From the NCBI RefSeq assembly GCF_009660225.1, contig NZ_CP045920.1, positions 1,488,001 through 1,552,000 on the forward strand: DNA of 64,000 bases, in the 5' to 3' direction. This stretch comes from Pseudactinotalea sp. HY158. GTDB taxonomy: Bacteria > Actinomycetota > Actinomycetes > Actinomycetales > Beutenbergiaceae. Below are positions 17,004-28,307 of the stretch, piece by piece (the stretch's first letter is position 1; each line of letters opens with the position of its first letter). The position numbers and the translations under genes are program-made. Under the pieces are notes generated by a model. It saw only the letters and a program-made list of their open reading frames with translations, searched no databases and had not been told where the DNA came from.

Positions 17004-17354
17004 GTGGTCACAGGCGGTAATGCTATTCGAGGGTCCCGCGTCGGTGCGGGGCCGATGGGCGAGGCCGAGCGGGGCGAGGCGGCCCCACGGGTCTGGGTCT
17101 CGTACTGGTGCGCGACCGGGCACGAGGTGCGCCCGAGCTTCGCCGGCGAACCGGGGATGGCGATCCCCGAGACGTGGGACTGCCCGCGGTGCGGACTTCC
17201 CGCCGGGCAGGACCAGCAGAATCCGCCGGCCCCGCCGCGGAACGAGCCCTATAAGACCCACCTGGCCTATGTGAAGGAACGACGCTCCGAGGAGGACGGC
17301 GCCGCCCTGCTCGAGGAGGCGCTCGCCGCGCTCCGCGCCCGCCGCGGCGGCTGA
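17004..17354 (+). CDS. rbpA: RNA polymerase-binding protein RbpA
   Basis: 116 residues. RbpA is an actinobacterial transcription factor that binds RNA polymerase and the principal sigma factor and stabilises open complexes. Zinc-type ligands are visible: WCATGHEVRPSF and CPRCGLPAGQD. The C-terminal helix EEDGAALLEEALAALRARR fits the sigma-interacting domain, and PYKTHLAYVKERRS is the basic linker. Translation starts with a GTG about 9 nt after gaaggag. The N-terminal 25 residues are variable. Confidence 0.92.
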   Translation: MVTGGNAIRGSRVGAGPMGEAERGEAAPRVWVSYWCATGHEVRPSFAGEPGMAIPETWDCPRCGLPAGQDQQNPPAPPRNEPYKTHLAYVKERRSEEDGAALLEEALAALRARRGG

Positions 17355-17371
17355 CACAGCCGACTTTCCGA

Positions 17372-17407
17372 AACGCCCGCCGCACCCCGTGAGGGGCGGC
17401 GGGCGTT
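17372..17407 (+). terminator. Terminator of rbpA
   Basis: Perfect 12-bp outer stem aacgcccgccgc/gcggcgggcgtt, with more pairing inside the 12-nt loop (cccc/gggg), 17 nt past the rbpA stop. Confidence 0.8.
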
Positions 17408-17422
17408 CGTGCGCCTGCCGGC

Positions 17423-17884
17423 ATGCTGCCCCGTCGGTGTGGGGAGACTTGCTGGTGTCGGGCACCGGGGATCGTCCCCGATCCTGCCCGTGGGCCGGGT
17501 GTCGACTCGGTGCGTGGTGGGGAGCCGGTGCGCTGCGCCGAGGAGTTTCCCCGCGGGGTCGGCTGGGCGGAGTCTGATGCTGCCGCGTCGGTGCGGGGAG
17601 ACTTGCTGGTGTCGGGCACCGGGGATCGTCCCCGATCCTGCCCGTGGGCCGGGTGTCGACTCGGTGCGTGGTGGGGAGCCGGTGCGCTGCGCCGAGGAGT
17701 TTCCCCGCGGGGTCGGCTGGGCGGAGTCTGATGCTGCCCCGTCGGTGTGGGGAGACTTGCTGGTGTCGGGCACCGGGGATCGTCCCCGATCCTGCCCGTG
17801 GGCGGGGTGTCGACTCGGTGCGGGGTAGGGAGCCGGTGCGGTGCACCGAGGAGTTTCCCCGCGGACTCGGCTGGGCCGATCTGC
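17423..17884. repeat. Three tandem 154-bp repeats between rbpA and pgl
   Basis: Copies begin at 17423, 17577 and 17731 (each starts atgctgcc). Copies 1 and 2 are nearly identical; copy 3 diverges in its last third, near the pgl stop. Every copy carries the small palindrome cggggatcgtccccg. The period (154) is not a multiple of three, so the reading frames through the array change between copies, arguing against protein coding. The block fills the whole 3' space between convergent rbpA and pgl. Confidence 0.9.
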
Positions 17885-17895
17885 CGGAGGCGGCC

Positions 17896-18648
17896 TCAGG
17901 CCGTGCGACTCGCGGCCGCCGGGTCGAGGATCCACAGCGTGACCTCCCGGCCACGCGCCCCGGCCGCGGGCGTCGTGGAGACCGGCTCGTCCCGCAGGGC
18001 GGAGGCGATGGCGTCGGCCTTGCCCGCACCCCATGCGGCCAGCCACACCTGCCGGGCCGTGTTGATCGACTCGAAGGTGAGGGAGACACGCTCCGGTGGG
18101 GGCTTGGGGGAGTCCGCCTCGACGACTGTCACACCGGTCGCCGTCAGGCCGGCGTGCCCCGGGAACAGGGAGGCGATGTGCCCGTCCGGACCCATCCCCA
18201 GCAGCACGACGTCGAACACCGGCTGCGGCTCGCCGTCGGCGGCGAAGCGGGCGAGCTCGGCCGCGTACCGATCGCCGGCCTCCGCCAGGGTGAGCCCCTC
18301 GTCGGAGGCGGGCATCGGGTGCAGGTTCTCCGCCGGCAGGTCGATCCGGTCGAAGAGCGCGTCGCGGGCCTGGACGGCGTTCCGGTCGGCGTCGGCGGCG
18401 GGCACGAACCGTTCGTCGACCCACCACACGTGCACGGAGCCGAGATCGACCAGGTCGAGCAGGTCGGATTCGGCGACCGCGCCGAGCACCTCGGTGCCCA
18501 CGGAACCGCCCGAGACGGCGATGTGCACGTGCTCGCGCACGGCCTGGGCGTCGATCAGGGCGAGCAGCAGCCGGGCTGCGGTCGCGCGGGCGAGGGCGCG
18601 GGCATCGGGGTGGACGATGACGGCGCGCTCACGGGCCGGGGCGCTCAT
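17896..18648 (-). CDS. pgl: 6-phosphogluconolactonase
   Basis: 250 residues (DevB/SugarP isomerase-like fold). Hydrolyses 6-phosphogluconolactone, the second step of the oxidative pentose-phosphate pathway. Motifs: HIAVSGGSVGTEVL near residue 45, VWWVDERFVPAADADRN, and GMGPDGHIASLFPGH with the catalytic His. Start ATG overlaps the opcA stop by 4 nt. Last gene of tkt-tal-zwf-opcA-pgl. Confidence 0.95.
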   Translation of the reverse strand: MSAPARERAVIVHPDARALARATAARLLLALIDAQAVREHVHIAVSGGSVGTEVLGAVAESDLLDLVDLGSVHVWWVDERFVPAADADRNAVQARDALFDRIDLPAENLHPMPASDEGLTLAEAGDRYAAELARFAADGEPQPVFDVVLLGMGPDGHIASLFPGHAGLTATGVTVVEADSPKPPPERVSLTFESINTARQVWLAAWGAGKADAIASALRDEPVSTTPAAGARGREVTLWILDPAAASRTA

Positions 18649-26645: not shown

Positions 26646-28307
26646 ATGGCCGAGCGAGACACCGGGCGAGGTAGCGGGCGAGATGCCGGGCAGGACGACG
26701 GGCGAGACACCGGGCGCGTCGACGGTGGCTCCGCGGTGGCCGTCCACCGACGGACGTGGCGGCTGGAGGACGTCACGGTCGCCGATCCGGAGGCGATGCG
26801 CCGATCGGTGACCGGGACCGCGGTCGGCAACTTCATGGAGTGGTACGACTTCGGCGTCTACGCCTATCTCGCGACCGTCATCGCCCAGGTGTTCTTCCCC
26901 TCGGGCGCCTCGGGCACGGCCTCGTTGATCGGCACCTTCGGGATCCTCGCCGCCTCGTTCCTCGTGCGCCCGCTCGGAGGGTTCGTGCTCGGCCCGCTGG
27001 GCGACCGGATCGGACGCCGGCGGGTCCTCATGGTCACGATCACGCTCATGGCCTGCGCGACCACGGCGACGGGCCTCCTGCCGGGTTATGACAGCTGGGG
27101 CCCGTGGGGGAGCGGCATCGGCTTCTGGGCGGCGATCCTGCTCCTGGTCACCCGGATGGTGCAGGGCTTCTCGACCGGCGGCGAGTACGTCGGGGCGATG
27201 ACCTACATCGACGAGCACGCCCCGGATCGTCGCCGCGGATTCCTCGCGGGCTTCCTGCCCGTGGGCACCCTGTCCGGCTACATCTGCGGCGCGGCGCTGG
27301 TCACCGGGTTGACGGCGGGCCTCTCCCAGGACGCGATGCTCGCGTGGGGATGGCGGATCCCGTTCCTGCTCGGCGGGCCGCTCGGCCTCGTCGCGCTGTA
27401 CATGCGGCTGCGGCTCCAGGAGACGCCGGCCTTCGAGAAGCTCACCGAGGAGGAGAAGGCGGGCTCCGAGGGCGGCGGGGCCCAGCAATTCCGACAGACG
27501 GTCGTCGAGCAGTGGCCGCGGCTGCTCGTGTGCATGGGGCTCGTGCTCACGTTCAACGTGACGAACTACATGCTCAGCGGGTACCTGCCGACCTACCTCG
27601 AGAGCATCGCCTCCCTCTCGAGCACCGTCGCGCTCGTCATCGTCACCGCGGTCATGCTCGTGCTGGCGGCGGCGGTGCTGTTCGTGGCGCGGCTCTCCGA
27701 TGCGGTCGGGCGCAAGCCGGTCATGTGGACCGGCTGCGGGCTTCTCGTCGTGGCCTCGATCCCGGCGTTCGCGCTCATGCGTTCCGGTGAGCATCTCGTG
27801 GTGTTCCTCGGGGTGCTGATCGTCGGCATCATGTTGTTGTGCTTCAACAGCACGGAGCCCTCGACCCTGCCCGCGCTGTTCCCCACGAACGTGCGCTATG
27901 GGGCGCTGGCGGTGGCCTTCAACATCTCCGTCTCGGCCTTCGGCGGCACGACGCCGCTCATCTCCGAGGGGCTCGTCTCCTGGACCGGGAACGAGATGAT
28001 GCCCGCCTACGTCCTCATCGTCGCCGGCATCGTGGGAATCGTGTGCGTGTTCTTCACGCCCGAGACCGCGCGCCGGCGGCTCCCCGGCGGGAGCCCGACC
28101 GTCGCCACGGACGACGAGGCGCGCTATGTCGCCGAGACCGGCACGATCGAGGATCCGGGGGAGTCCGCGGGTGGGATCACCGAGACCGAGGCCGGCACAG
28201 AGAACACAGAGAACACAGAGAACACAGTGGGCAGAGAGGGCCCAGAGGGCCCAGATGGCACAGAGGGCCCAGACGGCACAGAGGGCACCGAGCGCGAGCG
28301 GCGCTGA
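26646..28307 (+). CDS. MHS-family (ProP-like) major facilitator transporter
   Basis: 553 residues with 12 predicted membrane helices between about residues 60 and 490. The motif NFMEWYDFGVYAYLA at the first helix and GDRIGRRRVLM in loop 2-3 identify the metabolite:H+ symporter family (ProP, KgtP, ShiA). The substrate (compatible solute or dicarboxylate) cannot be fixed from sequence. Unusual soluble tails: the N-terminal about 30 residues are Asp/Gly/Arg repeats encoded by a degenerate 12-bp unit, and the C-terminus has (Glu-Asn-Thr)n then Glu-Gly-Pro repeats. The start ATG 26646 is the most downstream that keeps helix 1 with a cytoplasmic tail; GTG codons upstream are possible. Confidence 0.88.
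   Translation: MAERDTGRGSGRDAGQDDGRDTGRVDGGSAVAVHRRTWRLEDVTVADPEAMRRSVTGTAVGNFMEWYDFGVYAYLATVIAQVFFPSGASGTASLIGTFGILAASFLVRPLGGFVLGPLGDRIGRRRVLMVTITLMACATTATGLLPGYDSWGPWGSGIGFWAAILLLVTRMVQGFSTGGEYVGAMTYIDEHAPDRRRGFLAGFLPVGTLSGYICGAALVTGLTAGLSQDAMLAWGWRIPFLLGGPLGLVALYMRLRLQETPAFEKLTEEEKAGSEGGGAQQFRQTVVEQWPRLLVCMGLVLTFNVTNYMLSGYLPTYLESIASLSSTVALVIVTAVMLVLAAAVLFVARLSDAVGRKPVMWTGCGLLVVASIPAFALMRSGEHLVVFLGVLIVGIMLLCFNSTEPSTLPALFPTNVRYGALAVAFNISVSAFGGTTPLISEGLVSWTGNEMMPAYVLIVAGIVGIVCVFFTPETARRRLPGGSPTVATDDEARYVAETGTIEDPGESAGGITETEAGTENTENTENTVGREGPEGPDGTEGPDGTEGTERERR
28198..28290 (+). repeat. Short tandem repeats in the 3' end of the transporter gene
   Basis: A 9-bp unit (gaacacaga) repeats three times, followed by degenerate gagggcccaga/ggcacagag units. 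They encode the low-complexity Glu-Asn-Thr and Glu-Gly-Pro/Thr tail. Confidence 0.7.

Follow-up and report, generated by a model that had tools for sequence, protein, structure and literature searches.

A tandem repeat at 17423-17884 of a 64,000-nucleotide stretch of the Pseudactinotalea sp. HY158 genome (the window, whose numbering is used unless contig C1 or another locus is named) was found to belong to a family of short, dispersed dyads. The basic unit is a 39-bp dyad, GGGGA-N30-CCCC, that occurs twice per 154 bp in opposite orientation. Judging from sequence, we put at about even the chance that the window array is a member of a set of AbiEi-like operator arrays that a winged helix binds and a homing-type nuclease disperses via break repair. 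The original prediction, drawn from the letters of the window alone, had offered a family-specific repeat element as its first option, and in this it was right. The 154-bp tandem repeat that it described was recovered by Tandem Repeats Finder (TRF; period 154, 3.0 copies, 95% matches, score 845, 17423-17883), and direct comparison upheld the near-identity of copies 1 and 2 (2/154 sites differ), with copy 3 differing from copy 1 at 13 sites and from copy 2 at 15. The palindrome that it singled out, cggggatcgtccccg, is indeed present in each copy, albeit as part of the longer 39-bp dyad. What it overlooked is that each 154-bp unit comprises two dyads, the second inverted, at distances of 73 and 81 bp. 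Among the inverted dyads, copy 3's alone was picked up by scans, at the full 39-bp length; in copies 1 and 2 the inverted dyad has one degenerate end and was assigned by position. The array and its dyads are as follows.

17423..17884, no strand: tandem array of three 154-bp copies (TRF and direct comparison)
17441..17479, + strand: dyad module of copy 1, GGGGA-N30-CCCC, 39 bp (module scans)
17514..17552, - strand: inverted second dyad of copy 1, one end degenerate (by position, 73 bp after module 1; not picked up by scans)
17595..17633, + strand: dyad module of copy 2 (module scans)
17668..17706, - strand: inverted second dyad of copy 2, one end degenerate (by position; not picked up by scans)
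17749..17787, + strand: dyad module of copy 3 (module scans)
17822..17860, - strand: inverted second dyad of copy 3, full 39 bp (model search, E 0.153, and scans)

The dyad, as distinct from the 154-bp unit, recurs across the HY158 genome (3,652,490 bases, single contig C1). A whole-genome search with the unit, which had been proposed as a check, located the full unit at this locus only, the one other match spanning 39 bases. A consensus, GGGGAAACTCCCCGGTGCCGGGCACCAANGANNTTCCCC, was derived from 20 module copies at five loci; Watson-Crick pairing about the module centre holds at 61% of positions, compared with 19-26% when the centre is shifted by four to eight bases. The module model gave 81 matches at E<=1 in the genome (both strands counted, among 150 candidates scored), and a two-module pattern gave 33 + 22 = 55 matches, with 0 for the reversed control. 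Local scanning of the fetched loci yielded 13 arrays, each with two to seven modules, plus 3 single sites (one weak).

Array starts on C1: 1341865, 1397736, 1505441 (window), 1845721, 1897226, 2059407, 2244454
Array starts on C1, continued: 2364534, 3002478, 3279525, 3385367, 3531871, 3618703
Single dyad sites on C1: 2564427, 3005390, 3427817

Module orientation alternates in two arrays (the window and 2244454), and the other HY158 arrays are head-to-tail by eye. The first 1,341,864 bases of C1 (1-1341864), from the dnaA end (dnaA identified by eye), hold no array or site, and the sites span the remaining 2.3 Mb.

The geometry of the family is nearly fixed. Among GGGGA..TCCCC pairs lying 15-60 bp apart in HY158 arrays, 40/44 measure exactly 39 bp, and in loci of the Acidimicrobiia metagenome-assembled genome (MAG) SSF4, arm pairs lie at 43 bp in 86/86 partnered arms (5 arms are without a partner). 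All 43 HY158 spacings fall at 60-62 (19), 71-73 (20), 81 (2), or 92 bp (2), with none in 64-70, and these classes are steps of one helical turn. At the level of loci (15 values), phasing reaches an R of 0.93 at a period of 10-10.5 bp, which was matched by none of 100,000 uniform draws at 10.5 bp and by none of 4,000 draws with the period free. Spacing was not selected by the model search, because the model scored single modules. The SSF4 spacings, among those listed, are 61-63 (55), 72 (6), and 124 bp (1). A local slippage array or an assembly artefact without wider meaning would fit the restriction of the 154-bp unit itself to this locus; for the core this explanation is refuted by the 39-bp dyad in 13 arrays with quantised spacing and by copies that differ at up to 15 sites, and overall we give it next to no credence.

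We take the constraint to act on double-stranded DNA, because neither covariation, a G-U excess, an Rfam family, nor a T-tailed terminator was detected. The competing view, that RNA hairpins are selected in transcripts as a terminator, mRNA shield, or small RNA, draws on the stability of the window unit on the + strand (-91.3 kcal/mol, z -3.7 vs shuffles; z -0.8 on the - strand) and on HY158 alone, where G-U mismatches outnumber A-C mismatches on the sense strand (11 vs 7, 6 loci). The SSF4 MAG gives 7 vs 15, and over the 14 tandem loci of both genomes the counts are 18 vs 22, without G-U excess. Furthermore, covariation in 20 dyads does not go beyond shuffles, the unit has no Rfam match up to E 1, no intrinsic terminator (hairpin plus T run) occurs in 17300-18000, and RNA does not need the near-exact length and helical spacing. 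RNA selection is therefore improbable, and the suggestion in the original prediction that the repeat is the template of a small RNA finds no support in the Rfam, G-U, and covariation results.

Other identities were considered and dismissed. A protein-coding reading of the window array was rejected, given that the period of 154 is not a multiple of 3. Identification as a clustered regularly interspaced short palindromic repeat (CRISPR) array was rejected as well, since the spacers recur within arrays and are not unique. As for phage origin, no match to the unit was found among phages and no 3-dyad pattern in viral contigs, plasmids not having been searched with the unit.

Relatives of the dyad are thinly scattered. 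None of the 23 further family members searched matched the module model at E<=0.01 (150 scored candidates per genome), and the three-module pattern occurs in 2/394 genomes of the class and 2/396 of the phylum, HY158 included in both (reversed control 0 throughout). A contig scan of GTDB r220, covering spacings of 59-75 only with GGGGA/CCCC fixed, found 82 stretches, of which 80 were returned as loci. These include unrelated repeats along with 24 loci from SSF4, 8 from Nitriliruptoraceae MAGs, one from Patulibacter, two from Actinotalea, and one more from Acidimicrobiia. Spacings in these distant actinobacterial loci, where listed, are 60-63 or 71-74, with inner letters that differ from those of HY158; the scan also returned repeats from other organisms with spacings of 64-70. 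SSF4 holds 151 modules with arms CGTGGGGAC..GTCCCCACG (reversed control 0), and a slightly looser form of this module is present in 0/99 relatives of SSF4. The outer ten bases per side are invariant in 25/25 aligned SSF4 modules, an alignment in which GGGGA and CCCC were fixed by the search and ACGT and the remaining outer bases were not.

A nuclease gene of the DUF559 family recurs beside the dyads. Across the 80 loci, which were collected blind to gene content, a DUF559-like open reading frame (ORF) is present in 5, each time within 150 bp of the array (13, 18, 27, 60, and 121 bp); for random placement of these five ORFs, the product of probabilities is 6.6e-6. The candidate enzyme gene of HY158 (C1 3004183-3005067 as called) lies within ~320 bp of a single dyad and 1.5 Mb from the window. 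Its product matches PF18741 (41.7 bits, cut-off 38.2), PF04480 (38.4, cut-off 20.6), and AbiEi_4 (25.9, cut-off 25), and its N-terminus is probably longer than called; a PDB sequence search returned a weak match only (3hrl, E 0.014). Relatives of this protein were identified next to arrays by a search of the ORFs of the fetched loci, namely L073 (Nitriliruptoraceae), L080 (Patulibacter), and L182 (SSF4), the last with its ORF end overlapped by the array; a profile search contributed L103 (Actinotalea), L074 (Oscillatoria), and L095 (a Phycisphaerae MAG). Most actinobacterial partner proteins consist of an AbiEi-type winged helix joined to a DUF559 nuclease, and HY158 and SSF4 each have at least one AbiEi-DUF559 gene beside dyads. 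AbiEi_4 and DUF559 both exceed the Pfam cut-off in L073, L182, L199, and the HY158 protein. PF04480 does so in L073, L182, L199, L074, and L095 and not in L103, L200, or the truncated L080. The L074 and L095 proteins are DUF559 without AbiEi, and L200 has the DUF559/MTES_1575 end alone, with both scores below cut-off.

Repeats flanking DUF559 genes were also sought on plasmids. Of 22 hand-chosen plasmid loci, L196, in which the domain sits in a 4.9-kb BREX-region gene, was excluded, leaving 21 for the flank test. In 14/21 loci, the best match shared by the two flanks of the gene exceeds all 12 random same-locus controls, compared with 1.6 expected (P 1.8e-11). Hairpins with C/T arms (counts that include L196) number 12 in 3,840 bp near the gene vs 17 in 144,816 bp elsewhere, and 8/12 loci have one near the DUF559 gene. 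When tandem repeats were sought around 11 plasmid DUF559 genes, only L200 and L201 had arrays nearby. Several of the plasmid genes are inserted into operons, namely suf and pnt in Sphingomonas, hpa on three Deinococcus plasmids, with varying insertion points, and paa in another. A Tsukamurella plasmid gene has a dyad on both sides that measures 41 bp end to end (TGCGGTGGAT..ATCCACCGCA), near the usual size with quite different ends; the outer lengths of other actinobacterial dyads are 45 to 49 bp. In Photobacterium (L201, 6313-7974), a large, complex array rich in hairpins, whose periods lie near 148 and 297 bp, comes after the DUF559 gene. The cyanobacterial gene on pAQ6 (L198, 5770-6610) is flanked by many CCCCTAAATCCCC..GGGGACTTT repeats, which we take to be a common cyanobacterial repeat.

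The mechanism that we favor would run as follows. The AbiEi-type winged helix of the AbiEi-DUF559 protein would bind two ~23-bp half-sites per dyad, and neighbouring dyads, lying on the same face of the DNA, would be bound together. The Vsr-like nuclease domain would cut at or near the dyads, and repair of the break would copy the dyad to new places and multiply it in tandem; this would be a homing-like analogue of the pairing of repetitive extragenic palindromes (REPs) with REP-associated tyrosine transposases (RAYTs). Gene ends would be tolerated landing sites, and the array in the window would count as a non-autonomous copy whose candidate enzyme is encoded far away on C1. Half-site symmetry over 23 bp amounts to 13-18/23 in 20 chosen modules, with single background positions reaching 14-16.

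A number of results weigh against this mechanism. Of the five spacings in the window, four depend on inverted modules (copies 1 and 2) whose location was assigned by position, and the HY158 spacings are not fully independent because arrays within one genome may share descent. Upstream dyads in four AbiEi antitoxin operons score 12-14/23, and these operons lend no independent support because these loci reach that level at other positions as well (99, 11, 2, and 35 times). Joint binding of neighbouring dyads cannot be assumed, because cooperativity, as given in the accessible part of PMC7319586, is positive for AbiEi and negative for Rv2827c. The stretches fetched for 75/80 blind repeat loci, including all 24 from SSF4, are without a DUF559-like ORF, as is the 64-kb window. 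Among the partners, the Actinotalea protein (L103) matches AbiEi_1 only and has no Pfam DUF559 match, the Patulibacter ORF (L080) ends at the contig end with an AbiEi match below cut-off, and a structure model of the Nitriliruptoraceae partner (two sequences) is too poor for use (mean predicted local distance difference test score, pLDDT, 45.6). On the plasmids, 7/21 loci fail to beat all flank controls (L190, L195, L197, L201, L208, L209, and L210), a general palindrome score beats all controls in 7/21 and is less telling, and no C/T-armed hairpin lies near the gene in 4/12 loci, L196 included.

The positions of the dyads relative to genes bear on a different explanation, in which the host maintains them as 3′-end elements: phased operators of a nucleoid or roadblock protein would stop transcription or take up supercoils where genes converge, and DUF559 genes would merely share the safe landing sites. 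The gyrase-bound bacterial interspersed mosaic elements (BIMEs) of E. coli are a parallel. By a home-made codon-score gene caller, 8/16 HY158 sites lie between convergent genes (one overlaps a + strand ORF), 7 between same-strand genes, and 1 between divergent genes, with a stop codon 3-44 bp away at 11/16. The two-sided SSF4 loci (n=19) comprise 10 convergent, 8 tandem, and 1 divergent; 6 further loci have no neighbour on one side, one of these being inside dnaX. SSF4 arrays can occupy the entire intergenic gap (e.g., 16/16 bp). The prevalence of convergent sites, the proximity of stop codons, the filled gaps, and a dyad symmetry that works in both directions all suit host maintenance. Against it stand the sporadic presence of the family (2/394 in the class, 2/396 in the phylum, 0/99 SSF4 relatives), which suits a mobile family better than housekeeping, the separate terminator-like hairpin that already follows the + strand gene at the window junction, and the array in frame inside dnaX. 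We judge this explanation rather unlikely. A multi-hairpin transcription barrier, the second option of the original prediction, is possible because an array may take up all the space separating convergent stop codons.

The convergent junction itself was described as rbpA/pgl. The pgl half of this label holds, and the rbpA half comes from the original prediction, NCBIfam giving 0 families for that protein. The stop codons of the two genes are ~23 bp apart in relative G016 and 541 bp apart in HY158. The features around the array are listed here.

17004..17354, + strand: gene labelled rbpA in the original prediction, 3′ end 69 bp from the array (ORF; NCBIfam 0 families)
17372..17407, + strand: GC-rich hairpin directly 3′ of the + strand gene, separate, terminator-like, no T run (sequence and pairing)
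17896..18648, - strand: pgl, 6-phosphogluconolactonase, 3′ end 12 bp from the array (TIGR01198, E 8.5e-62)

Elsewhere in the window, at 28194-28292, a 9-bp unit, GGCACAGAG, is repeated eleven times in tandem (TRF). The 30 neighbouring ORFs scanned share no common function, 3 of them being without a family. The neighbours in HY158 are mostly ordinary (purB, leuA/recO, a COX15/CtaA gene), and two integrase-core genes lie beside the 3.002-Mb dyads. At that locus (L188 3562-9162, HY158, ~3.0 Mb), IS21-type (IstB, Mu-like) and IS3-like integrase genes accompany the dyads and the DUF559 gene; a search for insertion sequence ends around the 3.002-Mb dyads showed no clear terminal repeats.

As short extragenic palindromes at gene ends, the dyads have three exceptions: the dnaX array, a permease tail, and the one divergent HY158 locus. 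The original prediction had named a unit inside a protein of a relative as the finding that would speak against it. One such case exists in SSF4, whose dnaX contains an in-frame period-72 array, and we read it as landing in a gene and not as protein selection. This array (L108 7335-7517) sits in the dnaX linker and adds 24-residue repeats; of the two spacing classes, 72 alone is divisible by three. In HY158, a period-72 array in frame forms the C-terminal tail of an ABC permease ORF (L071 1737-1919, C1 1397736).

A broader and more tentative proposal, which we hold to be possible and somewhat less than probable, is that DUF559 nucleases, alone or AbiEi-fused, mobilise a second major class of palindromes dispersed in bacterial genomes, one that does not depend on RAYTs, across Actinobacteria, Cyanobacteria, Deinococcus, Proteobacteria, and Planctomycetes. 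The letters of the dyad would follow the nuclease of each genome, and in the AbiEi-fused branch the protein would set the 39-49 bp geometry and the 10-bp phasing. In the literature searched, no link between DUF559/MTES_1575 and palindromic repeats was found in the accessible parts of PMC12907096, PMC9403480, PMC6712171, PMC3710099, and PMC9879509 (most subscription papers and bioRxiv preprints lie outside this scope), and DUF559 is absent from the titles and abstracts of papers matching the term. PMC9927313 was discarded as a DUF559 source because it concerns, in its accessible part, DUF5590, another domain. Many families of extragenic palindromes have no known driver, and a rigid, protein-like geometry together with a recurrent nuclease neighbour supplies a direct, testable candidate. 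The proposal would give a possible role to DUF559, a large domain family of unknown function, and, if true, would extend the REP-RAYT idea to another enzyme fold and to break-driven spread.

Several known systems invite comparison. Mycobacterial interspersed repetitive units and variable-number tandem repeats (MIRU/VNTR) are repeats of 60-100 bp arranged in tandem between genes at many loci. The HY158 arrays are likewise tandem, intergenic, and found at many loci; they differ in their phased dyad, and we know of no phased dyad described for MIRU/VNTR.

The REP/BIME-RAYT system shares with the present family short, many-copy extragenic palindromes, mostly at convergent or unidirectional gene ends, with inverted pairs in two arrays and an enzyme gene beside the repeats in some genomes. 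These likenesses would suit spread of the dyads as REP/BIME elements by a Y1 (RAYT) transposase. However, PF01797 was detected in 0/1 HY158 and 0/8 other array genomes (mostly draft MAGs), whereas 5/14 control genomes were positive and the E. coli control was positive, and the partner found instead is DUF559 (Vsr-like). RAYT-driven REPs are accordingly very unlikely, because no Y1 transposase was found in the nine array genomes. REPs are defined by a tag of the GTAG or CGTC family (PMC3733652, accessible part); the module alignments show no such one-sided tetranucleotide tag at one end and instead symmetric ends, GGGGA/CCCC or ACGTGGGGAC/GTCCCCACGT, on a symmetric 39-bp core dyad in helically spaced tandem arrays.

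Homing endonucleases of the EDxHD/DUF559 type offer a parallel for the enzyme. One DUF559 gene has been assigned to the EDxHD homing-endonuclease family (PMC9403480, accessible part), and the insertion of DUF559 genes in operons (suf, hpa, paa, pnt) resembles such behavior, with the difference that the DUF559 genes considered here are tied to repeats and would be homing only by our reading.

A likeness in geometry is to the operators of AbiEi and Rv2827c in type IV toxin-antitoxin operons, for which the accessible part of PMC7319586 is our source. AbiEi monomers bind, with positive cooperativity, a pair of inverted 23-bp repeats separated by 3 bp (49 bp in total), and the Rv2827c promoter carries 23-bp repeats 13 bp apart within pairs, a 10-bp step, and 4 bp apart between pairs, with negative cooperativity; by arithmetic, this gives a pair period of 63 bp. 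If a dyad is taken as 49 bp with a half-site interval of 26, the HY158 spacings become 26+36, 26+46, 26+55, and 26+66, with half-site gaps near 3+10n, an agreement that is numerical and was noticed after the fact. Most partner proteins here also have the AbiEi winged helix. Unlike these operators, the HY158 dyads form longer arrays at many gene ends in place of one promoter, and their candidate protein is fused to a nuclease domain.
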